64,000 nt of DNA from Streptomyces sp. 840.1. GTDB taxonomy: Bacteria; Actinomycetota; Actinomycetes; Streptomycetales; Streptomycetaceae. Positions 127 through 48,594 of the stretch are shown piece after piece. The position numbers were made by a program, and so were the translations under genes. The stretch spans positions 744,001-808,000 of the forward strand of contig NZ_RJUU01000002.1 in assembly GCF_003751445.1 (NCBI RefSeq), written 5' to 3'. The notes beneath the pieces were generated by a model. The model worked only from the letters and a program-made list of their open reading frames with translations. It was not told where the DNA came from and searched no databases. Positions within the stretch are counted from its first letter, which is position 1. Each line of letters begins with the position of its first letter.

Positions 127-127
127 G

Positions 128-205
128 CACAGCCGCAGCCGCAACCGCATCCGTAGCCACAGCCACAGCCACAGCCACAGCCACAGCCTCAACCGCAGCC
201 ACCGC
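128..205. repeat. Hexanucleotide tandem array between sbnA and sbnB
   Basis: Thirteen consecutive 6-base units of the form CACAGC and close variants (CGCAGC, CGCAAC, CGTAGC, CTCAAC) fill most of the spacer between the two Dap genes; five units in a row at 158-187 are perfect. The array begins two bases after the sbnA stop codon. The unit length is a multiple of three, so changes in copy number would not shift a reading frame. I see no protein or RNA role for it; it may have grown by slippage. Confidence 0.9.
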
Positions 206-244
206 CCCGCGGGGCCCCGCGCCCGCCCGCGAAAGGGAACGCCC

Positions 245-1252
245 ATGCCCGCATTTCATGTGATTGACGGCGCCGTCGCCCGAGACGTCATCACTTCCGC
301 ACCGTCCGAGATCCTGGAGATCGTGCGGGACACCTACCTCCAGCACAGCCGAGGCGACACGGTGAACCCCGACAGCTACTTCCTCCGCTTCCCCGAGAAC
401 CCCGGCGCCCGCATCATCGCCCTCCCCGCCCACCTGGGCGGCGAGGCACCGGTCTCCGGCCTGAAGTGGATCGCCAGCTACCCGGAGAACGTGCGGCACA
501 ACCTGCCCCGCGCCTCGGCGGTCCTGCTCCTCAACGACGCCGAGACCGGCTACCCGTTCGCCTGCCTGGAGGCGTCCCGCATCAGCGCCGCCCGTACCGC
601 GGCCTCCGCCGCACTCGCCGTGGAGACCCTGGCCCCCGACGACGCGCCCCGCACCGTGCTCTTCGTCGGCGCCGGCGTCATCGGCCGTACGGTCTCCGAC
701 TTCCTCGCGGCCCGCGGACTCAACGTCCGCGAATGTCTCGTCCACGACCACGTGGACTCGTACGCCGAGAAGTTCGCCACCTACGCGGCCGAAGCCCATG
801 GGTGGCGGGCCAGAGCGGTCTCCGAGATCGACGCGGCCCTGGCCACCGCCGACCTGGTGGTCCTCGCGACCACGGCCCCGGCGCCGTGGCTTTCGGACGG
901 CCAGCCCCTGCTGCCGGACCAGCTCATCCTCAACCTGTCCCTGCGTGACATTCACCCGACGGTCATGATCAAGTGCCACAACGTTCTCGACGACATCGAC
1001 CACTGCCTCACCGCCCAGACCTCGCCCCACCTCACCGAGACGGAGTACGGCACCCGCGACTTCATCGACGGCACCCTCGCCGACGTCCTGCGAGGCAAGG
1101 TCATCCTCGACCGGGACCGCCCCACCGTCTTCTCCCCGTTCGGCCTCGGCGTCCTGGACCTGGCGGTCGGCTGCCACATCTACCGGACGGCCCTGGAGAG
1201 CGGCCGCGCCACCGAGGTGCCCAACTTCATCCCGGAGCTGACACGGTGGTGA
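245..1252 (+). CDS. sbnB: SbnB-type 2,3-diaminopropionate biosynthesis dehydrogenase
   Basis: This 335-residue protein belongs to the ornithine cyclodeaminase/mu-crystallin family and is the SbnB member. It oxidises N-(1-amino-1-carboxy-2-ethyl)glutamate with NAD+ to release 2,3-diaminopropionate and 2-oxoglutarate. The dinucleotide loop VGAGVIGRT is at residues 141-149, and the family signature ending FSPFGLGVLDLAVG is near the C-terminus. It is closely similar to the second SbnB at 41394-42464, which shares the stretches TGYPFACLE, SLRD and FSPFGLGVLDLAVG. The ATG is preceded by AAAGGGAA. The sbnA end lies 118 bases upstream, so both are likely on one transcript that ends at the hairpin at 1281-1335. 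Confidence 0.93.
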   Translation: MPAFHVIDGAVARDVITSAPSEILEIVRDTYLQHSRGDTVNPDSYFLRFPENPGARIIALPAHLGGEAPVSGLKWIASYPENVRHNLPRASAVLLLNDAETGYPFACLEASRISAARTAASAALAVETLAPDDAPRTVLFVGAGVIGRTVSDFLAARGLNVRECLVHDHVDSYAEKFATYAAEAHGWRARAVSEIDAALATADLVVLATTAPAPWLSDGQPLLPDQLILNLSLRDIHPTVMIKCHNVLDDIDHCLTAQTSPHLTETEYGTRDFIDGTLADVLRGKVILDRDRPTVFSPFGLGVLDLAVGCHIYRTALESGRATEVPNFIPELTRW

Positions 1253-13932: not shown

Positions 13933-14022
13933 GATGATGTCTGTCCTCTGCTTTTCGGGTGGGCAACGGGTCTCTGCGCGGGGACAACGGGGCCCTGCGT
14001 GAGGGGCAGGGGGCCGCTGGGT

Positions 14023-17000
14023 TCAGGACGCCTGTTCCTGTGCGTCGAACAATTCGATGAGCTGCTCCTTGACGCCGGTGACCGTCGGCGCCTGGAAGAG
14101 GCGGCGCAGACCGATCCGGACCCCGGTCACCGCCTCGATGCGGTTGACGAGCTGGATGGCGAGGAGGGAATGCCCGCCGATGTCGAAGAAGCGGTCGTGG
14201 ATTCCGACCTTCTCGCGGCCGAGCACTCCGGCCATGATGTCGGCGAGTTCCGCCTCGATGTCGTCGCGGGGCGCCACGAACTCCGCCGCGGTGTCGGCCT
14301 CCTCGGGGGCGGGCAGAGCGGCGTGGTCGACCTTGCCGTTCCGGTTGAGGGGGAGTTCCGGCAGTTCCACGAACGAGGACGGCATCATGGCCCGGGGCAG
14401 TCGCTCGGCCGCCCACGCGCGCAGCGACCCGGCGTCCATGTCCGCCGTGCCGGAGCCCGGCGCGGGTACGTGATAGGCGACGAGCCGTTTGTCGCCCGGG
14501 GTGTCCTCGCGGACGGTCACCGCGCACACCCCGACTGCCTCATGGGCGAGCAGGGCCGCCTCGATCTCGCCGAGCTCGACCCGGACGCCGCGCAGTTTCA
14601 CCTGCCGGTCGAGCCGTCCGAGCAGGTCGAGTTCGCCGTCGGGGGTGAAGCGGCCGACGTCACCGGTGCGGTACAGGCGGCCGCCCGTGAACGGGTCCGG
14701 TACGAAGCGTTCCTCCGTCAGTTCGGGTCGCTGGTGGTAGCCGCGGCCCACGCTGTCGCCGCCGAGGTACACCTCGCCCAGCACCCCGGCCGGTACGGGC
14801 CGGCGGTCCGCGTCGAGCACGTACACGCTCTGGTTCACCATGGGCCGCCCCGCGAGCACCGGGCCCCGGGGGTCGGTGCGCGAGGCCCGCCAGTACGTGG
14901 TGTCGACGGAGACCTCCGTCGCCCCGTACAGGTTGATCAGGTCGCCGGGGAAGCGGTCGAGGAATCGGGCCACCAAGGTCGGCTGGAGGGGTTCGCCGCT
15001 CGCGAAGGCGTAACGCAGGTGTGCGCAATCCTCCGGCGCCGCCTGTCCGACGAACATGTCCAGGAGACTCGGCACGAAGTGCAGGCCGACCACACCGTGG
15101 GTGCGCATCAGGCGGGACACCTCGGCCATGTCCAGCCGGTCGGAGCCGGGGACCAGGACGACCTTCGCCCCCTGCCACAGCGGCCAGAAGATCTCGTACG
15201 CCGACACGTCGAAGGACAGGGGCGTCGCCTGGAGGAAGCCCTCGCCCGGCTCGATCGGGAACGCGTCCTGCATCCCGGCCAGGTAGTTGACGACCCCCCG
15301 GTGCTCGATGCGGACCCCCTTCGGCCGCCCCGTCGAGCCGCTGGTGTAGATCAGGTAGGACAGGTCGCCCGGTCCCGCGACGGGTTCGGGTGCGGTGACC
15401 GGGAGGGAGTCCGGCAGGTCCGGGGCGCGGTCGACGGCCAGCAAGGCCGGGCCCCCGGACAGCAGACCGGCATGTGCGGTGTCGGTCACGACCAGGGGCG
15501 CGCCGGAGTCCTCCACCAGGTAGGCCAGCCGCTCCGCCGGATGCTCCGGGTCGAGCGGAACGTAGGCGGCGCCGGCCTTCAGGATGCCGAGCAGCGTCCA
15601 CACCAGGGCGGGCGAGCGCTCCAGGCAGACGCCCACCGGGACGTCCGGTCCTATCCCCGGCTCGGCGCGCAGCCGGTGCGCCAACTGGTTGGCCCGTTCG
15701 TCGAGTTCGCGGTACGTCAGCTCATCGGCGCCGCATACGACGGCGACGGCGTCCGGGGTGAGCGCCGCGCGGGTCTCGAACAGTCCGTGCAGGGTGGCCC
15801 CGGCCGGGACGGGCGCCGAGGTGGCGTTCCACTCGGACACGATCCGGTGGCGCTCGTCCGCACCGAGCATCTCCAGTTCCGAGAGCGCGCTGCACGGAGT
15901 CGCCGTCGCCGCTGCCAGCAGGTGGGTGAAGTGGTCCACGAGACCTCGCGCCGTGGCCTCGGTGAAGAGGTCGCCGGCGTAGACGACGGCGCCGTCCAGG
16001 GTCCCGTCGGCCGCCTCGGCGAGGTACATCGACAGGTCGAACTTCGCGTCGCGGACCGGCGATTCCATGGGCTCCGCCGTCAGGCCGGGCAGGCTCCACG
16101 CGTCCGCTCCGGGAGTGTTCTGGAGCGCGAACAGCGTCTGGAACAGCGGATTGCGGGACAGGTCACGGTCGGGGGCCAGCTCCTCGACGAGGCGCTCGAA
16201 GGGCAGGTCCTGGTGGTCGTACGCGCCCAGCGCCGTGTCCTTGACGCGGGCCAGCAGTTCGGTGAACGCCGGATCGCCGGAGAGGTCGGTCCGCAGGACG
16301 AGCGTGTTGACGAAGAAGCCGATCAGGTCCTCGGTCTCGGCCCTGTTGCGGCCGGCGATGGGGGTACCCACCGCGATGTCCCGCTGTCCGCTGTAGCGGG
16401 CCAGCAGCAGTTGGAACACCGACAGCAGGGTCATGAACAGGCTCGCGCCGCCGTCGGCGGCCACCGCCCTGGCACGTGCGGCGACATCGGCGGGCACCGA
16501 GAACCGGACGACCTCGCCCTTGCCCGTCCGCTGCGCGGGGCGTGCGTAGTCCGTCGGCAGCTCCAGCGGCTCCAGGCCCGCCAGGCTGTCCCGCCAGTAT
16601 CCGAGCTGGCGTTCCAGCGGTTCGCCGGTCAGCCAGCCGCGCTGCCACAACGCGTAGTCGGCGTACTGCACCGGCTGCGGCGGCGGGACCGGGCCCGTGC
16701 CCAGGGCCGCGGCGTACAGCGCCGACAGATCACGCACCAGCACGCCCACCGACCAGCCGTCGAAGGCGATGTGGTGCACGGTGATCGCCAGGACCGACTC
16801 CTCGTCGGCCAGCCGGACCAGCACCGCGCGCAGCATCGGGCCGGCGGTGAGGTCCACCGGGCGCAGCGCGTCCTCGGCCAGGACCGCCGCGCAGGCGTCC
16901 TCCCGCGCCCGGTCGTCGGCGACGGCGCGCAGATCCCGTAGCAGCACGGTCACCGGCCCCTCGGTGGCAACGGACTGGACCGGGGAGCCCGCATCGTCCG

Positions 17001-18153
17001 TGCCGAACCGGGTGCGCAGGATTTCGTGGCGGGCGACCAGCGCGGTCAAGGCGGTGTCGAGGGCGGCCACATCGACCGCTCCGTGGACGCGGAAGGCGAA
17101 CGGCAGCAGGTACTCGGCCCGGTCCGGCTCCAACTGGTCCAGGAACCATAGGCGTTGCTGAGCGAAGCTCAGGGGCAGCGGGGCGCCGTCGCGCGGCACG
17201 GCGGGGATGCGGGAGATCCCGACGTCATCGAGGTCCGCCACCGCGGCGGCCAGCAGCGCCGGGGTCGGCGCGCTGAACAGGGCCCGTACGGGGACGTCCA
17301 CGCCCAGCCGCCGGCGCAGCCGTGACACGACCCGCGTCGCCAGCAGCGAGTGGCCGCCCAGCGCGAAGAAGTCGTCGTCCATGCCGACGGTGTCGATGCC
17401 GAGCACCTCCGCCCACACCTCGGCCACCGTCCGCTCGGTCCCCGTGCGCGGGGCGGTGTACGCGGCGCCCAGTTCGGGCCGGTCGGAGGCGGGCGCGGGC
17501 AGGGCGCGGCGGTCCGTCTTGCCGTTCGGGGTGAGCGGGATGCGGTCCAGGGGTACGAACGCGGCGGGGATCATGTAGTCCGGCAGGTCGCGACGGAGGT
17601 GGGCACGCAGGGCGTCCGTCCCGACGGGCGGGTCCGCGACGAGGTACGCCACCAGCCGCGGGTCGCCCGGCAGGTCCTCGCGCAGTACGACGGTGGCGAG
17701 CGCGACCGACGGGTGGGTGAGCAGCGCCGCCTCGATCTCGCCGGGTTCGATGCGGTAGCCGCGCAGCTTGACCTGGTTGTCGCCCCGGCCGACGAACTCC
17801 AGATGCCCGTCCGGGTGCCACTTCGCCAGGTCACCGGTGCGGTACACGCGCCGTGGTGTGCCGTCCAGCGTGACGACCGTGAACTTCTCGGCGGTCAGGT
17901 CGGGCCTGCCCAGATACCCCCGGGCCAGGCCGGGGCAGCTGATCCACATCTCGCCCGGGACGCCCACCGGGACGGGCCGGCCGTGGCGGTCCACCACGAA
18001 GACCTTCGTGTTGGCGACCGGGCGCCCGATCGGCACATGGTCGCCGGGGCCGGTGATCCGGGCCGTCGCCGCCTCCTGCGCCGCCTCCGTCGGCCCGTAT
18101 CCGTTGACCAGCGGCACCGAAGTGTGGCGGAACCACTGGCGTACCTGCTCGCG
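14023..18153 (-). CDS. NRPS first protein, 3' part after a frameshift (end of A1, T, C, A2, T)
   Basis: In-frame coding resumes at about 18153 with REQVRQWFRHTS and the A5 motif NGYGPTE, continuing the adenylation domain left unfinished by the upstream ORF. Then come a carrier domain (LGGHS, DNA about 17340-17370), a condensation domain (HHIAFDGWS, about 16755-16785), a second adenylation domain (YTSGSTGRPKG, about 15318-15357) and a final carrier (IGGHS, about 14165-14190). The second A domain reads D-V-Y-H-F-S-L-V-D, one change from the known serine code D-V-W-H-F-S-L-V-D, so serine is likely. The ORF can be opened as far as 18312, but that N-terminal stretch is out of frame with the domain. 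The gap to the next NRPS gene is 90 bases. Confidence 0.85.
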   Translation of the reverse strand, partial: REQVRQWFRHTSVPLVNGYGPTEAAQEAATARITGPGDHVPIGRPVANTKVFVVDRHGRPVPVGVPGEMWISCPGLARGYLGRPDLTAEKFTVVTLDGTPRRVYRTGDLAKWHPDGHLEFVGRGDNQVKLRGYRIEPGEIEAALLTHPSVALATVVLREDLPGDPRLVAYLVADPPVGTDALRAHLRRDLPDYMIPAAFVPLDRIPLTPNGKTDRRALPAPASDRPELGAAYTAPRTGTERTVAEVWAEVLGIDTVGMDDDFFALGGHSLLATRVVSRLRRRLGVDVPVRALFSAPTPALLAAAVADLDDVGISRIPAVPRDGAPLPLSFAQQRLWFLDQLEPDRAEYLLPFAFRVHGAVDVAALDTALTALVARHEILRTRFGTDDAGSPVQSVATEGPVTVLLRDLRAVADDRAREDACAAVLAEDALRPVDLTAGPMLRAVLVRLADEESVLAITVHHIAFDGWSVGVLVRDLSALYAAALGTGPVPPPQPVQYADYALWQRGWLTGEPLERQLGYWRDSLAGLEPLELPTDYARPAQRTGKGEVVRFSVPADVAARARAVAADGGASLFMTLLSVFQLLLARYSGQRDIAVGTPIAGRNRAETEDLIGFFVNTLVLRTDLSGDPAFTELLARVKDTALGAYDHQDLPFERLVEELAPDRDLSRNPLFQTLFALQNTPGADAWSLPGLTAEPMESPVRDAKFDLSMYLAEAADGTLDGAVVYAGDLFTEATARGLVDHFTHLLAAATATPCSALSELEMLGADERHRIVSEWNATSAPVPAGATLHGLFETRAALTPDAVAVVCGADELTYRELDERANQLAHRLRAEPGIGPDVPVGVCLERSPALVWTLLGILKAGAAYVPLDPEHPAERLAYLVEDSGAPLVVTDTAHAGLLSGGPALLAVDRAPDLPDSLPVTAPEPVAGPGDLSYLIYTSGSTGRPKGVRIEHRGVVNYLAGMQDAFPIEPGEGFLQATPLSFDVSAYEIFWPLWQGAKVVLVPGSDRLDMAEVSRLMRTHGVVGLHFVPSLLDMFVGQAAPEDCAHLRYAFASGEPLQPTLVARFLDRFPGDLINLYGATEVSVDTTYWRASRTDPRGPVLAGRPMVNQSVYVLDADRRPVPAGVLGEVYLGGDSVGRGYHQRPELTEERFVPDPFTGGRLYRTGDVGRFTPDGELDLLGRLDRQVKLRGVRVELGEIEAALLAHEAVGVCAVTVREDTPGDKRLVAYHVPAPGSGTADMDAGSLRAWAAERLPRAMMPSSFVELPELPLNRNGKVDHAALPAPEEADTAAEFVAPRDDIEAELADIMAGVLGREKVGIHDRFFDIGGHSLLAIQLVNRIEAVTGVRIGLRRLFQAPTVTGVKEQLIELFDAQEQAS

Positions 18154-20756
18154 CGGAGCGCCTCGCCGCCGAGCCGCACCAGCCGCAGCTCCGGGCCGAG
18201 GGAGTCCGGCCCGTCGAGCTGGGCGGCGAGCGCACCGAACGCCGACGGGGTCAGCCAGGCCACTGTCACCTCGTTGGTGCGCAGCGCCTGCCCCAGCATC
18301 CCCGGGTCCCACGCGTCGTCGCGCAGCACCAGGGAGGCACCGGCGGTGAGCGGCGCGAACAGCTGCCCGACCGAGGAGTCGAAGGAGATCGACGCGAACT
18401 GCAGCACCCGGTCCTCGCAGGTGAGGTCGAGCCGGCGCCGGGTCTCCCGCATCCGTGCGCGCAGGGCGCCGTGGGTGATCTGGACGCCCTTCGGACGGCC
18501 CGTCGAACCGCTGGTGTAGATGACGTACGCGAGATCGTCCGGCCCTGCCCCGGGCGCGGCGGCGTCACCGGGGCGGGCGGGCGGTTCCGGCGGCCAGGAG
18601 TCCCCCAGCAGCAGGAGCGGTGTGGCGGCGGGCAGCCGCTCGGCGTGCGAGGACCGGGTGACGATCAGCGGGGCCCCGCTGTCCTCGACCATGTAGGCGA
18701 GCCGATCGCTCGGATACGCCGGGTCCAACGGCACATACGCGGCACCCGATTTGAGGATGCCGAGCAGCGTGCTCACCATGTCGGTGCCCCGGTCGAGGCA
18801 GACGGCGACCAGCGTGCCGGGACCGGCACCGCGCTCGCGCAGCAGGGCGGCGATCCACTCGGCCCGCTCGTCCAGCTCGCGGTAGGTCAGGTGCTCCGAA
18901 CCGCAGCTGACCGCAGGGGAGTCCGGGCGTTCGGCGGCCCGGTCCTCGAAGAGCCGGTGCACGGTGACGGCGTCGGGGGCGTCGGTGTCCGCCCCGTTCC
19001 ACGCGGTGAGGATCTGCCGCCGCTCCGAGGCCGTGAGCATCTCCAGGGCGGACAGCCGGGCCGTGGGGTCGTGGACGGCCGCGCCGAGCAGGGTCTCGAA
19101 GTGCCCGGCGAGCCGCACCATCGTGGCCTCGTCGAAGAGGTCGGTGGAGTAGACGATGGTGCCGTCGAGGCAGCCGTCCTCGGCCTCCGTCGCGTAGAAC
19201 GTGAAGTCGAACTTCGACTCCTGCGCGGACACGTCCAGCTGGCGGATGCTGAGGCCGGGCAGCTCCCAGGATCGGCCGGCGGGGGTGTTCTGGAGGACGA
19301 ACATGGTCTGGAACAGCGGGTTCCTGGAGAGGTCCCGCTGCGGCGCCAGTTCCTCCACCAGCCGCTCGAAGGGCAGGTCCTGGTGGTCGTAGGCGCCGAG
19401 TGCGGTGTCCTTGACGCGGTCGACGAGTTCGGTGAACGTCGGGTCGCCCGACAGGTCGGTGCGCATGACGAGCGTGTTGACGAAGAAGCCGACCATGTCC
19501 TCGATCTCGGCCCGGTTGCGGCCCGCGATCGGCGTTCCCACCGCGATGTCCTCCTGGCCGCTGTAGCGGGACAGGACGGCCTGGAACACCGCGAGCAGCG
19601 TCATGAACAGGCTTGCGCCCGTGTCGTGCGCCAGTCTGCGGGCCCCGTCGGCGGTCGCGGCGGGGATGCTGAAGGTGAGCATTGCCCCGTTGCCGCTGCG
19701 CCGCGCCGGGCGCCTGCGGTCGGTGGGCAGCTCCAGCGGTGCGGTGCCCGCCAAGGCGTCACGCCAGTAGCCGAGTTGGGAGGACAGCTCGTCGCCGGTG
19801 AGCCACTGGCGCTGCCAGACAGCGAAATCGGCGTACTGCAGCGGAGGTTCGGGAAGGCCGGCGGCGATGCCCGTGACCCGCGCCGTGTACAGGGTCGTGA
19901 GCTCGCGCGAGACCACCCCCACCGACCAGCCGTCGAATGCTATGTGATGAATGGTCAGGTTGAGTAGGTGTTCCTCCTCGCCCAGCCGGATCAGCAGCGC
20001 GCGGACCATCGGACCGGTGGCGAGATCCACCGGACGGAAGCCCTCGGTGGCCACGAGCGCGACGGCGGCCTCTTCCCGGGCCCCGTCATCCGCGACGGAG
20101 CGCAGGTCGTGTACGTCCAGCGGCAGCGCCCGGGGCGTGTCGATGATCTGGCCGGGGGTGCCGTCCCCGTCGGTGACGAAGCGGGTCCGCAACACCTCGT
20201 GCCGCGCCACCAGTTCCGACAGCGACGCCTCCAGAGCGGTCACGTCCAGCGGGCCGCTGATGCGCAGCCCCATCGGGATGAGGTATTCGGCCCGGCCCGG
20301 CTCCAGCTGATCCAGGAACCAGAGGCGGCGTTGCGCGAACGACAGCGGCAGCGGCCGCCCGCCACGGACGGCGGCGGGGATCGCGGTGGCGTCCTCGGGG
20401 TCCGGCGGTGCGGCCAGGGTGCCCTCGTCCGCGCCCTCGTCGATGGATTCGAACAGCCGAAGGGCCCGCTGCATGGCCTCATCGGCGAGGAACGACGCCA
20501 CGCTCCCTACGGTCAGGGGACCCGGAGCCGAAGGGGCCCGGAACTCCGAGCCGAACTCCACCGCCACCCGGCGGGCCATCTCCGCCGCCTGCTCCCCGGT
20601 GCCGCCCAGCAGGAAGAAATCGGACTCCGCCGTCTCCACCCCGGTGCCGAGAACGGACCGCCAAACGGCGGCGACCCGGGCCTCGGCGGGCGAGAACTCA
20701 CGCCCCGCGTCCCGACCGGGGGCCGACACCGGCGGCACCATCGGATTCGTAGTCAT
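17895..20756 (-). CDS. NRPS first protein, 5' part up to a frameshift (degenerate T, C, most of A1)
   Basis: The N-terminus (about 20-95) looks like a carrier domain, but the attachment motif reads LLGGTGE with glycine at 54 where the phosphopantetheine serine should be, so it is probably inactive. A condensation domain follows (HHIAFDG near 268), then an adenylation domain with YTSGSTGRPKG near 745. Sense ends at RLVRLGGEALR, about residue 868; the last 85 or so residues are a basic out-of-frame tail. Adding one base near 18153 joins it to the 14023-18153 part and restores a normal A domain. Its pocket reads about D-S-G-W-R-G-G-Q-E, which I cannot assign. The intact gene would encode about 2244 residues. 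An MFS exporter gene lies 200 bases upstream on the same strand. Confidence 0.85.
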   Translation of the reverse strand: MTTNPMVPPVSAPGRDAGREFSPAEARVAAVWRSVLGTGVETAESDFFLLGGTGEQAAEMARRVAVEFGSEFRAPSAPGPLTVGSVASFLADEAMQRALRLFESIDEGADEGTLAAPPDPEDATAIPAAVRGGRPLPLSFAQRRLWFLDQLEPGRAEYLIPMGLRISGPLDVTALEASLSELVARHEVLRTRFVTDGDGTPGQIIDTPRALPLDVHDLRSVADDGAREEAAVALVATEGFRPVDLATGPMVRALLIRLGEEEHLLNLTIHHIAFDGWSVGVVSRELTTLYTARVTGIAAGLPEPPLQYADFAVWQRQWLTGDELSSQLGYWRDALAGTAPLELPTDRRRPARRSGNGAMLTFSIPAATADGARRLAHDTGASLFMTLLAVFQAVLSRYSGQEDIAVGTPIAGRNRAEIEDMVGFFVNTLVMRTDLSGDPTFTELVDRVKDTALGAYDHQDLPFERLVEELAPQRDLSRNPLFQTMFVLQNTPAGRSWELPGLSIRQLDVSAQESKFDFTFYATEAEDGCLDGTIVYSTDLFDEATMVRLAGHFETLLGAAVHDPTARLSALEMLTASERRQILTAWNGADTDAPDAVTVHRLFEDRAAERPDSPAVSCGSEHLTYRELDERAEWIAALLRERGAGPGTLVAVCLDRGTDMVSTLLGILKSGAAYVPLDPAYPSDRLAYMVEDSGAPLIVTRSSHAERLPAATPLLLLGDSWPPEPPARPGDAAAPGAGPDDLAYVIYTSGSTGRPKGVQITHGALRARMRETRRRLDLTCEDRVLQFASISFDSSVGQLFAPLTAGASLVLRDDAWDPGMLGQALRTNEVTVAWLTPSAFGALAAQLDGPDSLGPELRLVRLGGEALRASRYASGSATLRCRWSTDTGRRRRRRRRRRPGSPAPATMCRSGARSPTRRSSWWTATAGPSRWASRARCGSAAPAWPGGIWAGPT

Positions 20757-40345: not shown

Positions 40346-41341
40346 TCAGGCAGTGGGCGCCCCGGGGGACGCCGGGACGGGCCCGACGGCGTCGAGCGGG
40401 CCCCGGCCGTACAGGTCCCGCACCCAGGTGTCCTGGTACACGGTGTCGAGATAGCGCTCGCCCAGGTCGGGTGCCACGGCGACCGCGGTGAGCTCCCGCG
40501 CCCCCTGCCCGTTCAGCCAGCCGACCGCGCCGCTCACCACCGTGCCCGTCGAGCCGCCGAAGAGGAATCCCCGCCCTGCCAGCCGGCGGCAGGCACGGAT
40601 CGTGTCCGCCTCCTCGACCCGGACCACCTCGTCCACGTACGACTCGTCCAGCAGCGGCGGGCGCATGCTCATGCCCAGCCCCGGGATCATCCTGCGGCCG
40701 GGTGCGCCGCCGAACGCCATCGAGCCGACGGTGTCCACCGCGACGATCCGCACCGGCAGGCGCAGGTCCCGGAAATAGCGTGCGCAGCCCATCAGGGTTC
40801 CGGTCGTCCCCGCGCCGACGAACAGGACGTCCAGGTCCGGGAACGAGCGGGCGATCTCCGGCGCCGTCGTCAGGTAGTGCGCCCGCCAGTTGGCCGGGTT
40901 GGAGTACTGGCTCAGCCACACGCACCGTTCGTCGGCGGCGCAGAGACTGCGGACGTAGTCGAGGCGGGCTCCGAGGAAGCCGCCGTTGGCCTCCTCACCG
41001 GCCACGCTGCGCACCTCGCTGCCCAGCGCCTCCATCAGCAGCCGCGTCGTGAGGTTGCAGCGCGAGTCCGTCACGCAGATGAACCGGTATCCCTTGCTCG
41101 CCGCGATCATGCTCAGCGCGACGCCGAGGTTCCCGGACGAGGACTCGACCAGTACGGAACCGGCTTTCAGTGAGCCGCCGCGCTCGGCGGCCGCCACCAT
41201 CTCGGCGGCCGCCTTGAGCTTGATCGAGCCGGCGAAGTTGAAACCCTCGCACTTGAGGAGCAGCGAGTGTCCGAAGACCGGCTCCACATCGACGTAGAGA
41301 TCCTCCTCGTTGAAGTCCTGGGGAACGGATATGACCGACAC
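40346..41341 (-). CDS. sbnA: SbnA-type 2,3-diaminopropionate synthase, second copy
   Basis: A 331-residue PLP enzyme of the cysteine synthase fold. The PLP lysine is probably K41 in FAGSIKLKAA; the asparagine loop SSSGNLG and phosphate loop GAGTTGTLMG are present. It joins O-phosphoserine and glutamate, the first step to Dap. I start it at GTG 41341 because GGAGGAG lies six bases upstream, rather than the ORF limit at 41473, which overlaps sbnB. The C-terminus matches the partial SbnA at 1-126 but extends about 15 residues further. Last gene of the five-gene operon. Confidence 0.93.
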   Translation of the reverse strand: MSVISVPQDFNEEDLYVDVEPVFGHSLLLKCEGFNFAGSIKLKAAAEMVAAAERGGSLKAGSVLVESSSGNLGVALSMIAASKGYRFICVTDSRCNLTTRLLMEALGSEVRSVAGEEANGGFLGARLDYVRSLCAADERCVWLSQYSNPANWRAHYLTTAPEIARSFPDLDVLFVGAGTTGTLMGCARYFRDLRLPVRIVAVDTVGSMAFGGAPGRRMIPGLGMSMRPPLLDESYVDEVVRVEEADTIRACRRLAGRGFLFGGSTGTVVSGAVGWLNGQGARELTAVAVAPDLGERYLDTVYQDTWVRDLYGRGPLDAVGPVPASPGAPTA

Positions 41342-41393
41342 GACTAACTCCTCCTCCGGGCGGTGTGCTGTCCGTGCTGCGGGGGCGCCTCCG

Positions 41394-42464
41394 TCACCCG
41401 TACCGGCGGCGTTCGTGGAAAAAGTCGTCCACGGTCCGAAGCTCGCCCGAGCGGTCCACCTCGTCGTAGACATGGGCGCCGACCGCGAGGTCGAGCACGC
41501 CGAGACCGAAGGGCGAGAACACCGCGGGCCGGTCCGCCGGGACGTCTACCCGCCCGGCCATGACGTCGTCGAGCGTGCCGTCGACGAAGTTCCGGTTGCC
41601 CGTGAGCTGTTCGGTCAGATGGGGCGAGGTGCCGGCCCTGAGGCAGTGCTCGATGTCGTCCACGACGTTGGTCGAGGCCAGCAGGACGGACGGGGCGAGG
41701 TCCCGCAGCGACACGTGGAGCACCACCGGGTTGTGGTCGAACCACGCCGGGTCGCTGACGTGCGGGGATCCCGCCACGGTCGCGAAGACGACGAGATCGC
41801 TCGTACGGATGAGTTCTTGCGGGTCCTGGTGCACGGTGACGGCCGCGGCGCTGCCGGACTGCTCCACGTACACGCGGAATCCGGCCGCGCTCTCCGCGGA
41901 CACGTCGTACACCCCGATGTCGTCGAACGACCAGCCGGAGCCTTCGAGGTAGGTGTGGATGTACCGGGCGATCAGGCCGGTTCCGAAGAACCCGACGCGG
42001 GTCGGCCGGGGGCGGCCCCGGCTGAGCCGGTCGGCGGCCGACGCCGCAGATGCCGCCGTCCTCGTCGCGCTGATGATCGAGCTCTCCAGGCAGGCGAACG
42101 GGTATCCGGTGTCAGGGTCGTTGAGGATCAGGACGGCCGAGGCCCGGGGCACGCCCGCGGCCACGTTGCCGGGGAAGCTGGCGATCCACTTCAGCCCGTC
42201 CACCCTCGCCTCGCCGCCCAGCGAGGCGGGCAGCGCGATCATCCTGGCGGTCGGGCGGTCCGGGAAGCGCAGGAACGAGGAGGGCGGGTTCACCGTCCGG
42301 CCCGATCCGTGCAGCCGGTAGGCCGCCTCGACCACGTCCACGATGTCCTTCTCGCGCCCCTCCAGGGCGCGCCGGACCTGGCCGCCGGGGATCACCGCGA
42401 ACGAGGGCACGGGGATCTCGCCGGTCGGGGTGTGACCGCTCGTGCGGTCTCGGTCGGTGTTCAT
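41394..42464 (-). CDS. sbnB: SbnB-type 2,3-diaminopropionate biosynthesis dehydrogenase, second copy
   Basis: A 356-residue SbnB family protein with nucleotide loop GFFGTGLIARY near 157 and the C-terminal FSPFGLGVLDLAVGAHVYDE. It is clearly related to the copy at 245-1252 but diverged outside motifs, so the two pairs were not duplicated recently. It completes Dap formation for this operon. Its start overlaps the oxygenase stop by four bases (ATGA), so synthesis of Dap and of the oxygenase are coupled. Confidence 0.93.
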   Translation of the reverse strand: MNTDRDRTSGHTPTGEIPVPSFAVIPGGQVRRALEGREKDIVDVVEAAYRLHGSGRTVNPPSSFLRFPDRPTARMIALPASLGGEARVDGLKWIASFPGNVAAGVPRASAVLILNDPDTGYPFACLESSIISATRTAASAASAADRLSRGRPRPTRVGFFGTGLIARYIHTYLEGSGWSFDDIGVYDVSAESAAGFRVYVEQSGSAAAVTVHQDPQELIRTSDLVVFATVAGSPHVSDPAWFDHNPVVLHVSLRDLAPSVLLASTNVVDDIEHCLRAGTSPHLTEQLTGNRNFVDGTLDDVMAGRVDVPADRPAVFSPFGLGVLDLAVGAHVYDEVDRSGELRTVDDFFHERRRYG

Positions 42465-43495
42465 CGCTGCCCCGCCCCGGCCGTCGGCGGGCAGGTGTCC
42501 AGCCGGGTGGGCGAGGCCATCGCGACGACCACGTCGCGCGGTCCCTCGTAGGCCTCCCGGCTGTGCGCGGTGCGGATGTTGTCGACGAGCAGCAGATCAC
42601 CCGCCTGCCACGGCAGACGCACGGTGTGGTCCGCGTAGACGGAGCCGATGAGCCGGACGGCCTCCTCGTCGAGCGGCTCGCCGTCGCCGTACCGGGTGTT
42701 GAACGGCAGTCCGGCGGGCCCGTACTCGTCGATCAGGTACTCCCGCACCTCGGGCGCGAGCGTCCATTCGTTGAGGAAGGCGATCTGGTTGAACCAGCAG
42801 CGCTGTCCGCCGGCCGGGTGGCGCACCACCGCGCTGCGGCGCTGCGTGGTGCGCAGTGCGCCGTCGGGCTGCCAGTCCCAGTCGATGGCGTGGGCGCGGC
42901 AGTAGCTCTCCACGGCATCGCGGTCGGCGGTGCCGAACGCCTCGGACACGGTGGCCCCGATCTCGTCGTTGTAGCTGCGGTCCAGCAGCCAGCCCTCCCG
43001 CTCGAACCGCTCGGCGAGGTGGCGGGGCAGGGCGTCGAGTACGGTCGCCGCGTCGGCCAGGCAGATGGCTCCGCCGCTGGTGGGCCCGGTGAGACAGGCG
43101 AAGAGCAGCAGTCCGGGGAAGCCGAGCGTGTAGCTCAGCTCATGGTGCATGCACATCGGCTGGTTCGGGGGCCAGGGAGACGCGGAGTGCACTCCGGGGG
43201 CGTAGGTCTCCCTGGGCGCGAAGGCCTCCCGCTCCGTCACCGGTTCGAGGGCCAGGTGGGCCAGGACCGCCGCGACGTCCGCCGTGTCGCGGAGCCCCAG
43301 TCCGCGGATCAGGACCGCGCCGTGCGCGAGGAGTTCGGCGCGCAGCCGTTCGCGGGCACCGTCGGCCCAGCGGGCCGGGTCCTGGGCGTCCGGGACCCGC
43401 AGCACCGGGGGGCGGCCGGGGTGGCCGGACTCCGTTCGCGGGCCGAGCGGTGAGGTTGTCGTTTCGGGTGCGGTGGTTGTTTCGATGGAGGTCAT
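42461..43495 (-). CDS. TauD/TfdA-type Fe(II)/2-oxoglutarate oxygenase
   Basis: A 344-residue oxygenase. The iron triad is probably His-x-Glu in MCMHHELSYT near 115-120 and the distal histidine in DNIRTAHSREAYEG near 310; an arginine in GPRDVVVAMA suits 2-oxoglutarate binding. The HxE form and the MHHELSYT context are typical of the SyrP and related members that hydroxylate amino acids attached to NRPS carrier proteins. Between an adenylation-carrier protein and Dap synthesis genes, oxidation of carrier-bound Dap is the most likely role; this resembles DdaC in dapdiamide biosynthesis, which epoxidises an acyl-Dap held on an NRPS. That comparison rests on gene content, not on a search. Confidence 0.87.
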   Translation of the reverse strand: MTSIETTTAPETTTSPLGPRTESGHPGRPPVLRVPDAQDPARWADGARERLRAELLAHGAVLIRGLGLRDTADVAAVLAHLALEPVTEREAFAPRETYAPGVHSASPWPPNQPMCMHHELSYTLGFPGLLLFACLTGPTSGGAICLADAATVLDALPRHLAERFEREGWLLDRSYNDEIGATVSEAFGTADRDAVESYCRAHAIDWDWQPDGALRTTQRRSAVVRHPAGGQRCWFNQIAFLNEWTLAPEVREYLIDEYGPAGLPFNTRYGDGEPLDEEAVRLIGSVYADHTVRLPWQAGDLLLVDNIRTAHSREAYEGPRDVVVAMASPTRLDTCPPTAGAGQR

Positions 43496-43522
43496 GTCAC
43501 TCTCCTCGAGGTGGTGATCGGT

Positions 43523-46024
43523 TCACCGGGCAGCGCGTTCGTCCACGAGCGCGGCCAGATCGGTCAGTACGGGGTGGCGGACGAGGTCCTTGAGCGAGAC
43601 CTCCCGGTCCAGGGAGATCACGACGCCGACCGCCGACAGCGAGGTGCCGCCCCGGTCGAAGAAGTTGTCCCGCCGTCCCAGCCGGTCCTGCGGTACCCCG
43701 AGCGCCCGGGACCAGGCCGCTGCCAGCCGCCGCTCGGTGCGCGTGCGGGGGAGGGCCTCGCTCCCGGGGTCGCCGGGTGCTCCGGACTCCGCCGCGAGGC
43801 GGGTCAGTTCGGCCCGGTCGATCTTTCCGTTCGCGGTCAGTGGCAGGGCCTCCCGCCAGTGGACGGCGGCCGGAACCATGTACGCGGGCAGCGTCTCGGC
43901 GAGGCGTTCGGCGACGGAGCCGTCCGGCGGCGGCTGTGTGCCGCTGCAGAAGGCGATCAGCCGCCTCGCCCGGCCTGCCGCCTCTCCGGTCACCACGACG
44001 GCGCCGTCGCGCACGCCCGGGACCGCCAGCAGCGCGTTCTCTATCTCGCCGGTCTCGACGCGGAAGCCGCGGATTTTCACCTGGTTGTCGCGGCGGCCGA
44101 GGAATTCCAGCTGTCCGTCGGGGAGCCAGCGGCCGTAGTCCCCGCTCAGGTGCATCCGCTCCCCGGGGCGGTGCGGATCGGGCAGGAAGGCGGCCCGGGT
44201 CCGCTCGGGGTCGTTGATGTATCCGCGGCCCACGCAGATCCCGGAGAAGGCGATCGCGCCGGTGGCGCCCAGCGGCACCGGGTTCCGGTGCTGGTCCAGG
44301 AGGTACATGCGTGCGTTGCCGACCGGGCGCCCGATCGGCACCCCGTCGGTATCCGGCAGCCGGTGCATGAGCGCGTGGGTGGTGTCGTCGGACGTCTCGG
44401 TCAGCCCGTAGGCGTTGACGAGCACTGTTCCGGGGCGGGCCCTGAACCAGCGCCGGACCAGGTCCTTCTTCAGCGCCTCGCCGGTGACTGAGAGACAGCG
44501 CAGGTCGGGTAGTTCGCGTGGGTGCCGTTCCAGGAGGGCCAGGACGGCATCGAGGTAGGACGGCACCACCTGGACCACGCCCGCCCGGCCATCGGCCAGC
44601 GTGTCGAGGAAGCGCCGGACGTCCAGGACGTCCTCCTGGCCGACCAGCAGGGTGGTTCCGCCGGTGAGCAGGGGGCAGAGCAGCTGCCACAGCGAGATGT
44701 CGAAGCACTGCGGGGCGGTCTGGGCGACCACGTCCGACCCGCCGATCCCCAGGTCGTCGATCTTGGCGAGGAGGTGGTTGAGCAGGCCGCCGTGCTCCAC
44801 CATCGCGCCCTTCGGCTCGCCGGTGGAACCGGAGGTGAAGAAGACGTAGGCCAGATCGCCGGCGCCGACCGGGACTCCGGGATCGGCGTCGGTGCCGGAT
44901 CCGGTGCCTCCGGGGCGGGGCGCGCAGAGCGGGCCGATGAGCAACGTCCGTACGTCCGGCAGGGAGTTCAGGGCGCGGTCGAGGGTCGCGGTGCTGCCGG
45001 ACTCGGTGAGCACGAGACCGCAGCCGGCGCGGGTGAGCACGGCGGCGATGCGTCCGGCGGGGAAGTGGGGATCGACGGGGAGGTAGACGCCGCCGGACTT
45101 GAGGATCGCGAGGACGCCGGCCATCCATTCCAGGCTCCGTCCGGCCACCAGGGCGACGACCCCCTCCCTGGTCAGCCCCGCGTCCAGCAGGGCGTGTGCC
45201 AGCCGGTTGGCACGGGTGTTGAGCTCGCGGTACGTCCACCGCCGGTCGCCGTGGACGGCCGCGACGCTGTCCGGATGAGCGCGGACCCGCTGTTCGAACA
45301 GCTCGTGGAAGCGGAGACCGGGCAGCTCGCGGTACGGCCCCGCGAGCCCGTCGAGCTGCAGGCGGAGTTCGCCGGGCGACAGCAGACTCTGCCGGCCGTG
45401 CTCCGCCTCGGGGCCGGCGGCGATCAGCCGCAGCGCGGCGAGGTGGTAGCCGGCGATGCGGGTGGCGGCCTCCTCGTCGAGCGCCTCGGTCCGGTAGCGC
45501 AGCCGCAGTACGGTCCGGCCGTCGCGGCGCGGGAACCCGACGCTGAAGACGGTGTCCGGCGCCGGTTCGCCGCCGCCGGCCGGATCGAAGACCGCCTCCG
45601 GTACCGCCGTGGGGAGCCGCAGTCGCCGGCCGAGCGCCTCCACCGGGAACCGCCGGTGGGCCAGCAGCTCCGCCTCGGTGCGATCCGCGTGGCGCAGGAG
45701 CGCCCGCCAGGACACGCAAGCGGTCGTCAGCCGGCAGGGCAACGGCCCGACGCCCGAGGCGGGGACGTACCCCGTCGTGACACCGGGTTCGCCGGACAGC
45801 GCGGCGAGGACCTTGGCGTGGGCGGCCAGGAGCGGCGCGGTGGGTGAGAGGCCCATCGACCGGGCCAGCGCGTCCAACTCCGTGACCAGGGCGTCCGGGA
45901 CGGCTTCCTCGACCGCCGCGGTGCCCGCCGCCGGGCTGCGCGTCCACCTCGGGACGGCGGTGGACCCGCCGGCGGTCAGCACCTCGCGCCAGTACTCGGC
46001 ACCGGTGCGTGCGGTCGTGTTCAT
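43523..46024 (-). CDS. NRPS with half condensation domain, adenylation and carrier domains
   Basis: An 833-residue protein. Residues 1 to about 225 look like the C-terminal half of a condensation domain: it starts at YWREVL and contains LAALSGEPGVTTGYVPASG, but there is no HHxxxDG motif, so it cannot be a normal catalyst. The adenylation domain (about 265-745) has FFTSGSTGEPKGAMV near 405 and NAYGLTE near 545; I read the pocket as D-I-W-Q-S-T-A-D-D, which I cannot assign, though two acidic residues would suit an amine-bearing side chain such as Dap. The carrier has RGGTSL near 795. The ATG overlaps the stop of the upstream gene by four bases. Confidence 0.9.
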   Translation of the reverse strand: MNTTARTGAEYWREVLTAGGSTAVPRWTRSPAAGTAAVEEAVPDALVTELDALARSMGLSPTAPLLAAHAKVLAALSGEPGVTTGYVPASGVGPLPCRLTTACVSWRALLRHADRTEAELLAHRRFPVEALGRRLRLPTAVPEAVFDPAGGGEPAPDTVFSVGFPRRDGRTVLRLRYRTEALDEEAATRIAGYHLAALRLIAAGPEAEHGRQSLLSPGELRLQLDGLAGPYRELPGLRFHELFEQRVRAHPDSVAAVHGDRRWTYRELNTRANRLAHALLDAGLTREGVVALVAGRSLEWMAGVLAILKSGGVYLPVDPHFPAGRIAAVLTRAGCGLVLTESGSTATLDRALNSLPDVRTLLIGPLCAPRPGGTGSGTDADPGVPVGAGDLAYVFFTSGSTGEPKGAMVEHGGLLNHLLAKIDDLGIGGSDVVAQTAPQCFDISLWQLLCPLLTGGTTLLVGQEDVLDVRRFLDTLADGRAGVVQVVPSYLDAVLALLERHPRELPDLRCLSVTGEALKKDLVRRWFRARPGTVLVNAYGLTETSDDTTHALMHRLPDTDGVPIGRPVGNARMYLLDQHRNPVPLGATGAIAFSGICVGRGYINDPERTRAAFLPDPHRPGERMHLSGDYGRWLPDGQLEFLGRRDNQVKIRGFRVETGEIENALLAVPGVRDGAVVVTGEAAGRARRLIAFCSGTQPPPDGSVAERLAETLPAYMVPAAVHWREALPLTANGKIDRAELTRLAAESGAPGDPGSEALPRTRTERRLAAAWSRALGVPQDRLGRRDNFFDRGGTSLSAVGVVISLDREVSLKDLVRHPVLTDLAALVDERAAR

Positions 46025-48594
46025 CGTGCCGCCTCCTCGCTCCGGGCGCTGCCCGGCCGGATCTGGCGTGCGGGGTTTCCGCCCCACAGCGCGTTGCGGG
46101 GGACCGACTCGCCCTTCATCAGGAAGGAGTCCGGAGCGAGGGCGGCCCCGTCGTCGATCGTCACGCCGTAGTGCACGAAGGCGCCGACGCCGAGGGTGCA
46201 GTGCGAGCCGATCGTGGTGGTGGCGGACTTGAAGGTGCCGTCCTCCTGCGAGTGGCACTGGACGACGCTGCCGGCGTTGAGCGTGGCGTGGTCCCCGATG
46301 GTGACCATCGTGCGTTCCGTCAGGTAGCAGCCGTCGTCGAAGACCTCGCGCCCGATCCGGACGCCGAGCGACCGCCAGACGAGACTCTTGAACGGTGTCC
46401 CGTTGAAGATCTGGAGGTACGTCTCGGACGGCACCTTCCAGAAGCGTTCGCGCCGCCAGAAGCGCGGGTCGTAGATCGAGCAGAACAGCGGGCCCGGCGC
46501 GTGGAACACCGTGACGAGGCGTTCGACGAGAACGAAGTACCCGGCGCTGACGACGACGAGGAGCACATTGCCCAGCGCGACGGCCGAGGCGCCCACCGAG
46601 GTGTAGAGCTCCGCGGCACCCGACATCACCAGGGTGACCACGAAGGCGTAGAACCACCGAACCAGCAGGTACAGCCCCATGGAGGCGGCGTTGTGCCTGT
46701 TCTTGGCCGCCAGGCCGCTGCGCAGGGTCTCGCCGCTCTTCATACGGTCGAAGCTGCTGTCGCGCCGGACCGACCGGGGGATCTCGAAGCTGGGTGAGCC
46801 GAGGAGACCGACGCCCTCCCGCGTCCGCCCGTCGACCGGGACCATGACCTTGGTCGCCAGCAGACAGTTGTCCCCGACCCTGCTCCGCGCGGGGAAGGCG
46901 ATCCTGTTGCCGAGGAAGCTGTGCGCCCCGATGGCGGCCCGGGACACCCGGAACGAGGTGCTGGAGAACTCGGCGTTGTTGATCGACAGCCCGTCGGCCA
47001 CCATCGTGCCCGTTCCGACCAAGCTCAGGTACGGCGTCTCGTGCTTGACCTCGGTACCGAAGTTCGAACCGGTCTGCTCGACCCGGGAGAGGTCGTAGCC
47101 GAGCAGGCGCAGGTAGGGGACGATGCCGGAGCTGTCACCGAACAGGCGGGTGAGGAAGCGCCGGTTGGTCAGCAGGGTGATCGCGCGGTGCACCCCGTAG
47201 TGGAAGCCGTAGAGCGGATAGACCTTGTCCGGTCGGATGGTGCGGCTGAGCAGCCGGGGCACGGTGGCGAGCAGCAGGAAGGCGAGCGGCACGATCACGA
47301 AGAGCAGTACGAACGAGGCCGCCAGGGTGTCGCGGTAGAAGGCCCAGGTGGTGAGGACGCTGGGCCCCGGGTCCAGCACCGCCGAGAGCTGCGGCGCCCC
47401 GGCGAGCAGCATGCCGAGGCCGCCGACGGCCAGCGGCAGGTACACCAGGAGCGCGCTCAGCAGCTGGGTGCCGCTGTGGACCGCACGGCGCAGGGTGCCG
47501 CAGACCACAGCTCCCACCACCTGGTACTCCGCCCCGGCGGGCTCCGCCGGCGAACCGTGCCAGTGCTCGCCCGCGGGCACGGACTGGCCCCGGTGCAGGG
47601 CGGAGGCGTGGGCCAGGCGGGCGCCGTCGCCCATGGATGTCCCGATGTCGAGCACCGAGGCCTCGGCGACGACCACGTCCCTGCCGAGGGTCACGGTGCC
47701 GGTCTGGATCAGCCCGTCATGGGCGCGGTAGCAGGAGAGGAACGAGTCCTTGCGGACGACGGAGGAGTCCCCGACGGTCAGCAGGTCGGTGCAGAGGGGG
47801 ACGTTGCGGGAGAAGATCACCACGCCCTTCCCGATCCTCGCGCCCAGCGCCCTGAGGTAGAGCGTGTACAGCGGCGACCCGGCGAACAGGACGAGCGGGT
47901 CGGCGCGGACGAGTGTCCGGACGATCCAGAACCGGACGTACGCCAGGCTCCAGATCCGGATCTCCTGGGGCCTCCAGCGCCCGACGAGTACCCACTTCGT
48001 GGCGATCGGCAGCACCGAGAGCCCCAGCAGGGCCCCGGCGCCGAACACGACCGAGCGGAGGTAGCCCGAGAGCACGCCGGACCCGGCGGATATCCACTCG
48101 TAGCCCCGGACGGTGATGGACGCGATGAGGCACGAGTAGGCGACGAAGGACAGGAGCTGCAGCGCCCCGCACACCCGGTACCGGGCCCGGCCCGTGGGGG
48201 CCGGCGGCGCGGGAGCGGAGTCCCTGCCCGCCGAAGGCGCGGCGACGGGCAGGGACTTTGCCGGCGAAGGGTCCGCGGTGGGGGAGGAGGGCGCGGGGGG
48301 AGCCAGCGCGGACGCCAGTGCGCCGGCCGTGGGGTGTGCGTAGACGTCCCGCATCGAGACCGCCGGCAGGTCCGCGCGCTTGCGCACCCGTGCGCAGAAG
48401 TGGGCCATCATCAAGGAGTCGGCGCCCAGGTCGTCGAAGAAGTGACTGTCCGCCGCCACCCGGTCGAGGTGCAGTACATCCGCGAGAACGTCCGCGAACT
48501 CCGCTTCGGCACTCCGGGGGACGACAGCGGCGCCGTCGTGGGGCGCGGCCTCCCGGAGGTCCGGTGGCAGTGTGGCGACTCGCTTTCCTGACAT
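46021..48594 (-). CDS. Carrier domain fused to a Pls/PosA-type NRPS terminal membrane domain
   Basis: An 857-residue protein. Residues 25-105 are a carrier domain with DDLGADSLMMAHFCARVRKR, including the attachment serine, followed by a proline-rich linker to about 150. The rest is the terminal domain of the Pls/PosA family: about six membrane segments in pairs (SFVAYSCLIASITV, LSALLVYLPLAVGG, ASFVLLFVIVPLAFLLL, LYLLVRWFYAFVVTLV) alternating with left-handed beta-helix-like repeats rich in GD, IG and V steps. In Pls, the epsilon-poly-L-lysine synthetase, domains of this type join free amino acids into short peptides. Unlike Pls it lacks an adenylation domain, which its neighbour supplies. First gene of the operon. 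Confidence 0.87.
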   Translation of the reverse strand: MSGKRVATLPPDLREAAPHDGAAVVPRSAEAEFADVLADVLHLDRVAADSHFFDDLGADSLMMAHFCARVRKRADLPAVSMRDVYAHPTAGALASALAPPAPSSPTADPSPAKSLPVAAPSAGRDSAPAPPAPTGRARYRVCGALQLLSFVAYSCLIASITVRGYEWISAGSGVLSGYLRSVVFGAGALLGLSVLPIATKWVLVGRWRPQEIRIWSLAYVRFWIVRTLVRADPLVLFAGSPLYTLYLRALGARIGKGVVIFSRNVPLCTDLLTVGDSSVVRKDSFLSCYRAHDGLIQTGTVTLGRDVVVAEASVLDIGTSMGDGARLAHASALHRGQSVPAGEHWHGSPAEPAGAEYQVVGAVVCGTLRRAVHSGTQLLSALLVYLPLAVGGLGMLLAGAPQLSAVLDPGPSVLTTWAFYRDTLAASFVLLFVIVPLAFLLLATVPRLLSRTIRPDKVYPLYGFHYGVHRAITLLTNRRFLTRLFGDSSGIVPYLRLLGYDLSRVEQTGSNFGTEVKHETPYLSLVGTGTMVADGLSINNAEFSSTSFRVSRAAIGAHSFLGNRIAFPARSRVGDNCLLATKVMVPVDGRTREGVGLLGSPSFEIPRSVRRDSSFDRMKSGETLRSGLAAKNRHNAASMGLYLLVRWFYAFVVTLVMSGAAELYTSVGASAVALGNVLLVVVSAGYFVLVERLVTVFHAPGPLFCSIYDPRFWRRERFWKVPSETYLQIFNGTPFKSLVWRSLGVRIGREVFDDGCYLTERTMVTIGDHATLNAGSVVQCHSQEDGTFKSATTTIGSHCTLGVGAFVHYGVTIDDGAALAPDSFLMKGESVPRNALWGGNPARQIRPGSARSEEAAR

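Follow-up and report, generated by a model that had tools for sequence, protein, structure and literature searches.

A putative split Pls/PosA-type synthetase with its own 2,3-diaminopropionate supply and an oxygenase in Streptomyces sp. 840.1

We analyzed a 64,000-nucleotide stretch of the Streptomyces sp. 840.1 genome (assembly GCF_003751445.1, contig NZ_RJUU01000002.1, positions 744,001 to 808,000 of the forward strand; hereafter the window), which carries a five-gene operon on its minus strand at 40346-48594. In transcription order, the genes encode a protein consisting of a carrier followed by a Pls/PosA-type terminal domain (TD), a synthetase with half of a condensation domain, an adenylation domain and a carrier (half-C-A-T), a TauD-type oxygenase, and finally SbnB and SbnA, two families of 2,3-diaminopropionate (Dap) biosynthesis (Table 1). 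An earlier note on this DNA, made from its letters alone, had described a one-strand operon of five genes with four-base overlaps. We recovered all five genes and confirmed ATGA overlaps in the sequence between the TD and half-C-A-T genes (46021-46024) and between the oxygenase and SbnB genes (42461-42464).

Table 1. Features of the operon, with positions in the window
Feature	Position	Strand	Evidence
TD protein, carrier plus Pls/PosA-type membrane terminal domain, 857 aa, without A domain	46021..48594	-	TIGR02353, PF00550, hydropathy
Carrier domain T1 of TD protein, residues 34-97, motif GADSL	48304..48495	-	PF00550, E 2e-10
Terminal polymerizing/exporting domain of TD protein, residues 141-842	46069..48174	-	TIGR02353, match 1-695/695
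Half-C-A-T synthetase, 833 aa	43523..46024	-	Pfam domains, ATGA overlap with TD gene
C-terminal lobe of condensation domain, residues 1-235, without HHxxxDG; probable docking part	45320..46024	-	Profile and structure match
Adenylation domain, residues 243-734, code DIWQSTADDK	43823..45298	-	PF00501, E 2.9e-81
Carrier domain T2 of half-C-A-T, residues 766-827, FFDRGGTSL	43544..43729	-	PF00550
TauD-type Fe(II)/2-oxoglutarate oxygenase, 344 aa	42461..43495	-	PF02668, E 5.2e-40
SbnB, 2,3-diaminopropionate biosynthesis	41394..42464	-	TIGR03944
SbnA, 2,3-diaminopropionate biosynthesis; frame open to 41473, GTG at 41341 as probable start	40346..41341	-	TIGR03945

A putative synthetase divided between two proteins

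The first protein had been read as a carrier plus Pls/PosA terminal domain without an adenylation (A) domain, with a TIGR02353 search proposed as the check. It matched this family over its full length at 732.9 bits, above the cut-off of 423.1 (E 3.7e-220), its carrier belongs to the PP-binding family, and Pfam and TIGRFAM profile searches gave no AMP-binding match, so the description stands. By hydropathy, the protein has six hydrophobic segments in three pairs, with peaks near residues 144-162, 174-204, 378-406, 424-442, 639-657 and 672-690. No second TD above the TIGR02353 cut-off was found in the same genome. In this layout it resembles Pls, which makes epsilon-polylysine, and PosA, which makes delta-polyornithine, where a carrier likewise precedes a terminal domain with three pairs of membrane helices (excerpts of PMC10522769). 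Unlike Pls and PosA, whose A domain is fused in cis within one chain, the TD protein has no A domain; PosA itself is described there as a single-gene operon. The family network in the same excerpts used a length window of 1100-1800 residues, so chains of about 850 residues such as this TD were omitted from it.

The poly(L-diaminopropionic acid) synthetase of Streptomyces albulus PD-1, a single A-T-TD chain encoded by 4,338 bp, offers a second comparison (excerpts of PMC4668381). Both systems combine an A-T unit with a Pls-like terminal domain and a Dap monomer (presumptive in our case), and in both the Dap would come from a cysteine-synthase-like and ornithine-cyclodeaminase-like pair. In contrast to the S. 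albulus system, A-T and T-TD are separate proteins here, a half-C and an oxygenase have been added, and the Dap genes lie within the operon, whereas those of S. albulus are stated in the excerpts not to lie near pdaps. Neither oxygenase nor hydroxyl occurs as a word in that paper. We found no description of the split form with an oxygenase, or of its product, in the open-access literature, subscription journals being mostly outside the search, nor any open-access paper combining non-alpha-poly-amino acids (NAPAA) with diaminopropion; a 2026 paper on manikomycin, matched on the word polycationic, proved unrelated. The earlier note's remark that it knew no described pathway with exactly this set agrees with this search of the open-access literature.

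The second protein had been described as half-condensation-A-T, and all three parts are present. Pfam assigned AMP-binding to residues 243-602, AMP-binding_C to 660-734 and PP-binding to 766-827, and residues 1-235 matched condensation (C) domains from about residue 190-230 onward, with McyA, AmbE, Txo2 and Txo1 as best hits. An AlphaFold model of the half-C built from 33 sequences (mean predicted local distance difference test score, pLDDT, 88.8) retrieved C domains in Foldseek, with E values down to 3.9e-13 and a query template modeling (TM) score of 0.77 for Txo1. The HHxxxDG motif was absent from the first 300 residues in all 64 A-T rows examined. Judged from its sequence, the half-C cannot serve as a normal condensation catalyst, because it comprises only the C-terminal lobe and lacks HHxxxDG.

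Read from the motif positions, the A-domain code is DIWQSTADDK. Its first nine letters, DIWQSTADD, were present in 49 of 54 readable split-type rows, our own included (two further rows did not cover the positions), and the other five rows carried DIWQSTTDD (two), DIWQCTTDD (two) or DIWQATADD (one). In the loci that we opened in related genomes (L numbers; G numbers denote genomes of the genus sample described below), all ten letters recurred in 53 of 55 A hits with at least 50% identity from L080-L147, the other two hits being incomplete and some loci overlapping. Nine letters were identical in all 20 loci picked by half-C (see below). The code was the same in every cluster type opened and was mostly accompanied by Dap-synthase genes. 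As this is the sole A domain of the operon, and its code occurs mostly with SbnB-SbnA genes, we infer from gene neighborhood that its substrate is Dap. The code presumably also resembles a 2,4-diaminobutyrate (Dab) code, a likeness of which we made no use. Structural matches in the PDB (LgrA, Txo2 and others) were uninformative on what the A domain activates. No characterized A domain bearing this code, and so no Dap match, was found in the open-access literature searched: no paper contained the code strings, a review of A domains contained none of diaminoprop, diaminobut, Dap or Dab, and the available passages of the SulM paper do not print the SulM Dap code.

The remaining three proteins also belong to the families that had been named. 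The oxygenase retains the iron ligands H117-x-E119 and H311 together with R320, all conserved in 52 sequences and in a set of 34 (partly from the same loci), and its model (mean pLDDT 79.4) adopts a TauD fold, with 1y0z as the best Foldseek match (E 1.3e-23). SbnB scored 405.9 bits against TIGR03944 (cut-off 326.9) and SbnA 373.8 bits against TIGR03945 (cut-off 349.95), which supports the proposal of a Dap supply within the operon. For SbnA the family held and the start did not: a GTG at 41341, preceded by a GGAGG-like site, is very likely the start in place of the ATG at 41473, and the TIGR03945 match starts only at residue 53 of the longer frame. With this start, SbnA would follow SbnB after about 50 bases.

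Distribution of the operon and degraded fused A domains

The arrangement had been treated as singular, and this view did not survive comparison with other genomes. In a sample of 382 genomes of the genus, our own included, a TD of this lineage (E <=1e-90, queried with the last 375 residues) was present in 141, more than a third, and a related half-C (E <=1e-12) in 143. An even draw over the phylum (396 genomes of 236 genera, our own included) gave an oxygenase at E <=1e-110 in only six genomes and two genera, and this low count indicates that the system is concentrated in the genus and patchy elsewhere. As to copy number, G215 has five TD copies of this lineage, and several other genomes have two or three.

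Scanning genome contigs with the TD protein yielded 46 loci, from, among others, Streptomyces, Actinomadura, Pseudonocardia, Actinoplanes, Amycolatopsis, Geodermatophilus, Blastococcus, Arthrobacter and Microtetraspora, with two metagenome-assembled genomes among them, one of Citricoccus and one of Acidobacteria. The TD had no recognizable in-frame upstream A3 core in 36 of these 46 loci (L055 and L059, with degraded A parts, included) and was fused as A-T-TD in eight (L063, L065, L066, L069 and L076-L079); L073 and L074, where the TD match was too short to score, were dropped from TD counts. We then scored four partners anywhere in the locus, namely A at a minimum identity of 50%, oxygenase at 50%, SbnB at 60% and SbnA at 55%. 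All four were present in 30 of the 36 split loci, and in 27 of 30 when loci with less than 19 kb of sequence were counted apart. A second set of 20 selected shorter TIGR02353 frames, 845-1106 residues long, gave 17 of 20, and 14 of 16 among those with 19 kb or more. Of the exceptions in the two sets, L037, L064, L067 and L099 are short or cut loci, and the others are L053, L058, L072, L080 and L090 (see below). Among 20 loci picked by oxygenase, second copies included, TD and all partners occurred together in 17, the exceptions being L122, L124 and L126. L122, with a TD, an oxygenase, a decayed half-C and, by eye, an acyl-CoA-ligase-like gene, looks like decay. The search for close operons that had been suggested therefore found many, usually split and with their own Dap genes in the loci opened, and because the operon is conserved in so many relatives, its chance assembly can be excluded.

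How the split may have arisen is suggested by L055 (Pseudonocardia humida) and L059 (Actinomycetospora), where the TD protein carries an in-frame A part upstream. The A3 core of these fused parts is broken (SAGADGRPTG and HAQDTGGGRSAD versus TSGSTGRPKG), and Pro-rich sequence stands in place of the C-terminal subdomain with its catalytic Lys; Pfam gave AMP-binding at 209.6 and 107.8 bits, respectively, and no AMP-binding_C. Judged by these motifs, both fused A domains appear inactive, and in both loci a half-C-A-T lies downstream. The L055 part retains FDFSVEE, the DFE start that it shares with fused Georgenia and Planctomonas enzymes. The nearest fused rows (L063, L065, L066 and L069) are 45-54% identical and have the codes DFECLSVVT or DFEALGTVT, and the Pls-type rows of Streptomyces and Kitasatospora are only 26-30% identical. 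F at the second code position has been reported for poly-Dap/poly-Dab synthetases (excerpts of PMC10522769). Most simply, these sequences can be read as the outcome of a poly-Dap/Dab-type synthetase dispensing with its own A domain after a separate one had come to serve it. In a quick IQ-TREE tree of 94 TD rows, fused Georgenia, Planctomonas and Mesorhizobium proteins sit on long branches in the midst of the split rows, at a great distance from the Pls rows of Streptomyces and Kitasatospora. A single origin of the split form is likely, although the tree does not recover one. The family would offer a naturally occurring example of a polymerizing synthetase whose loading enzyme has seemingly moved from cis to trans and left remnants behind, making carrier recognition by Pls-type domains testable with separate proteins.

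The half-C-A-T and oxygenase in loci without a TD

To see where the oxygenase belongs, we can turn to 20 places with more distant oxygenases (43-61% identity, plus one 70% fragment), in none of which a TD was seen. One of them, L136, is truncated where its contig ends and probably belongs with L160, a TD operon in the same genome of which it would be the second half. A half-C-A-T with the same code was present in 11 of the 20 (L128-L135, L142, L146 and L147), and SbnB and SbnA accompanied it in seven of these (L129-L132, L142, L146 and L147); L128 has only an SbnB fragment, and L133-L135 have a 30-32% PALP relative. In L137-L141 and L143-L145 (oxygenase identity 43-50%), unrelated A domains adjoin. 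The A codes in these latter nonribosomal peptide synthetase (NRPS) clusters include DAWDFGLVDK and DAQDFGLVDK.

Since this set had been picked by oxygenase, the test was repeated on 20 loci chosen through their half-C. Most of them came from the more diverged half-C hits of the genus sample, and L162 coincides with L126. An oxygenase lay within about 2.1 kb in 18 of 20, on the same strand in 14 and on the opposite strand in four, and a TD was present in seven. The exceptions are L156, cut by a contig end, and L159, which has no oxygenase; in L160 the gene is partial, lying at a contig end. Because the linkage persists where the TD is absent, the oxygenase belongs with the half-C-A-T, and we rejected the idea that it serves the terminal domain. 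Such linkage is what one would predict if oxidation took place on the carrier and the half-C lobe served for docking. It fits the on-carrier oxidation proposed in the earlier note; the oxidized Dap that the note envisaged stays presumptive.

The interface-domain concept of on-carrier hydroxylation may provide a setting for this arrangement. SyrP-type on-carrier beta-hydroxylation is known for beta-hydroxyaspartate siderophores (excerpts of PMC8949500). As in SyrP-type systems, a TauD-family enzyme with HxE...H accompanies an A-T unit, to which a C-type part without HHxxxDG, presumably dead as a catalyst, is joined here; unlike in those systems, the partner A code is associated with Dap rather than Asp, and the C part is a C-terminal lobe only.

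The dapdiamide pathway (DdaA-D), to which the operon had been likened, comprises Dap synthesis, an A-T carrier protein, an Fe(II)/2-oxoglutarate oxygenase and an ATP-grasp ligase. The operon shares the first three and, unlike that pathway, has a membrane terminal domain in place of the ligase: no ATP-grasp ligase was found among the five genes or the close neighbors tested (MurT, the GATase_3 amidotransferase and peptide deformylase). The analogy is therefore weak, although one relative without a TD (L134) does have such a ligase.

Where scanned, the neighbors of the half-C-A-T and oxygenase in these TD-less loci are diverse: ketosynthase (KS), short-chain dehydrogenase/ketoreductase (SDR/KR)-type and D-3-phosphoglycerate-dehydrogenase-like genes in L130; KS, SDR and MMPL in L142; an A-KR-T protein and ABC transporters in L146; an MxcG/EntF-like NRPS part in L131; and the ATP-grasp ligase and PALP in L134. 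The near-invariant A code and the traveling oxygenase point to one undescribed Dap-derived building block common to several kinds of cluster. Tentatively, and with the balance of probability against us, we suggest that the half-C-A-T and oxygenase, often with SbnB-SbnA, may form a portable unit that makes one special oxidized Dap building block for at least four assembly systems (the Pls-type membrane polymerase, KS/KR-type clusters, an MxcG/EntF-like NRPS and the ATP-grasp ligase cluster). Because hydroxylation of either Dap side carbon would give an unstable product, this building block would likely be reactive or cyclized (aldehyde, enamine/imine or aziridine), and the polymerase version would, if the suggestion is true, yield cationic oligomers of a new class into which a reactive residue is built.

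Proposed pathway, alternatives and genomic setting

We propose that the operon encodes a relative of Pls, PosA and poly-Dap synthetase, the cationic homopoly(amino acid) synthetases, that is split, is loaded in trans and makes a short Dap oligomer with one or more oxidized residues, a reading to which we give about an even chance. SbnA and SbnB would first supply L-Dap, an activity established for both families. The DIWQSTADDK A domain would then activate Dap and load it onto its own T2 and, in trans, onto T1, the trans loading replacing an ancestral cis A domain, in keeping with the degraded fused A domains observed in two relatives. Consistent with the linkage described above, the half-C lobe may dock the oxygenase at Dap-S-T2, where Dap would be oxidized on the carrier. 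Pls is proposed to form its amide bonds with a free acceptor; by homology, the membrane domain would join carrier-bound Dap by amide bonds onto a free acceptor and export the product. A short Dap oligomer of the isopeptide type would result, in which oxidized Dap perhaps serves as an end group.

Several points weigh against this proposal. Both side carbons of Dap bear nitrogen, and plain C-hydroxylation would give an unstable hemiaminal; on general chemical grounds an aldehyde, an imine/enamine or a ring-closed oxidation product is more sensible. The operon has no visible catalyst for T2-to-T1 transfer. Homopolymer synthetases conserve Asp at code position 1 and Glu at position 3 (excerpts of PMC10522769), and the trans A domain has the Asp and lacks the Glu (DIW...), which is why its substrate assignment rests on gene neighborhood. 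The fused A part of L055 still matches PF00501 at 209.6 bits, so that only its motifs speak for a loss of function, and in the TD tree the split form is not one clade, requiring three changes, with long branches meeting. Finally, L053 and L058 have TD, A and SbnA with no oxygenase or SbnB nearby, L072 and L080 have no A-T gene, L090 has a TD alone, and L159 has a half-C-A-T without an oxygenase.

The loci without an oxygenase, L053 and L058, would suit an alternative in which the operon makes plain poly-Dap or a comb-like Dap-on-Dap polymer, with Dap on both carriers for backbone and branches and the oxygenase making only a cap or minor variant. A comb-like Dap polymer is known (from the excerpts available), and two carriers with one A domain would suit two roles for Dap. 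We nevertheless consider this unlikely: most of the TD loci opened contain the oxygenase, and it stays with the half-C-A-T even where the TD is missing, which argues that it is no minor extra.

Equally unlikely, in our view, is a small-molecule product, for which the terminal domain would join oxidized Dap once to another amine or amino acid and then release and export a dipeptide-like compound. The ATP-grasp ligase of L134 and the KS and SDR/KR-type genes of L130 and L142 do suggest small Dap products in TD-less relatives. A thioesterase could also release a free modified amino acid, and roughly half of the TD operons have room for one after T2, where the gap measures about 1-1.3 kb in 23 of 48, 0.3-0.6 kb in 24 of 48 and 2.8 kb in L059; Pfam confirmed a thioesterase there in L044, and one was recognized by eye in L043, L045 and L046. 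The window's own A-T protein, however, has no thioesterase by Pfam, and the characterized TIGR02353-type enzymes make polymers (excerpts of PMC10522769 and PMC4668381). Moreover, T1 is repeated in tandem on the TD protein in eight loci, two or three in a row (by Pfam, three copies in L052 and L062 and two in L051, L055 and L059; by motif only, three in L056 and two in L057 and L058), and such tandem carriers suit repeated loading of a membrane enzyme.

Least probable, and in our judgment quite improbable, is activation of another amino acid with Dap merely as free acceptor or side product: the code is unlike the DFE and DxE codes of homopolymer synthetases, and L133-L135, L149, L152, L154, L156 and L157 (L134 and L156 being cut by contig ends) combine the same code with only a 30-33% PALP relative of SbnA, SbnB not being found, but this is the sole A domain of the operon, the code also occurs with SbnB-SbnA in seven of 11 TD-less clusters, and two acidic pocket residues (code positions 8 and 9) suit a second amine.

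The genes around the operon that we tested, peptide deformylase (48735, plus strand), MurT, the GATase_3 amidotransferase, phosphofructokinase and CtaG, look like housekeeping genes. Downstream of the operon, four Streptomyces relatives (L036, L038, L039 and L040) carry a related gene, which in L036 is a sigma-70-family factor of extracytoplasmic function (ECF) size. Four relatives outside Streptomyces (L047, L049, L052 and L067) have an extra gene after SbnB or SbnA, threonine-synthase-like by eye; in L049 this pyridoxal phosphate-dependent gene was assigned to the PALP family. A second Dap-synthase pair occupies the left edge of the window (1-1252), with the terminal part of an SbnA-like frame at 40-114 (64% over 25 residues) and, at 227-1249, an SbnB-like gene (49% over 343 residues). 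This pair adjoins a large multimodular NRPS on the minus strand (2063-20756) that ends in C-A-T-thioesterase and in which three A domains have the code DLTKVGEVAK and one has DVYHFSLVDK. Near 18150 a frameshift or sequence error divides a further A domain (18959-17482) over two frames.

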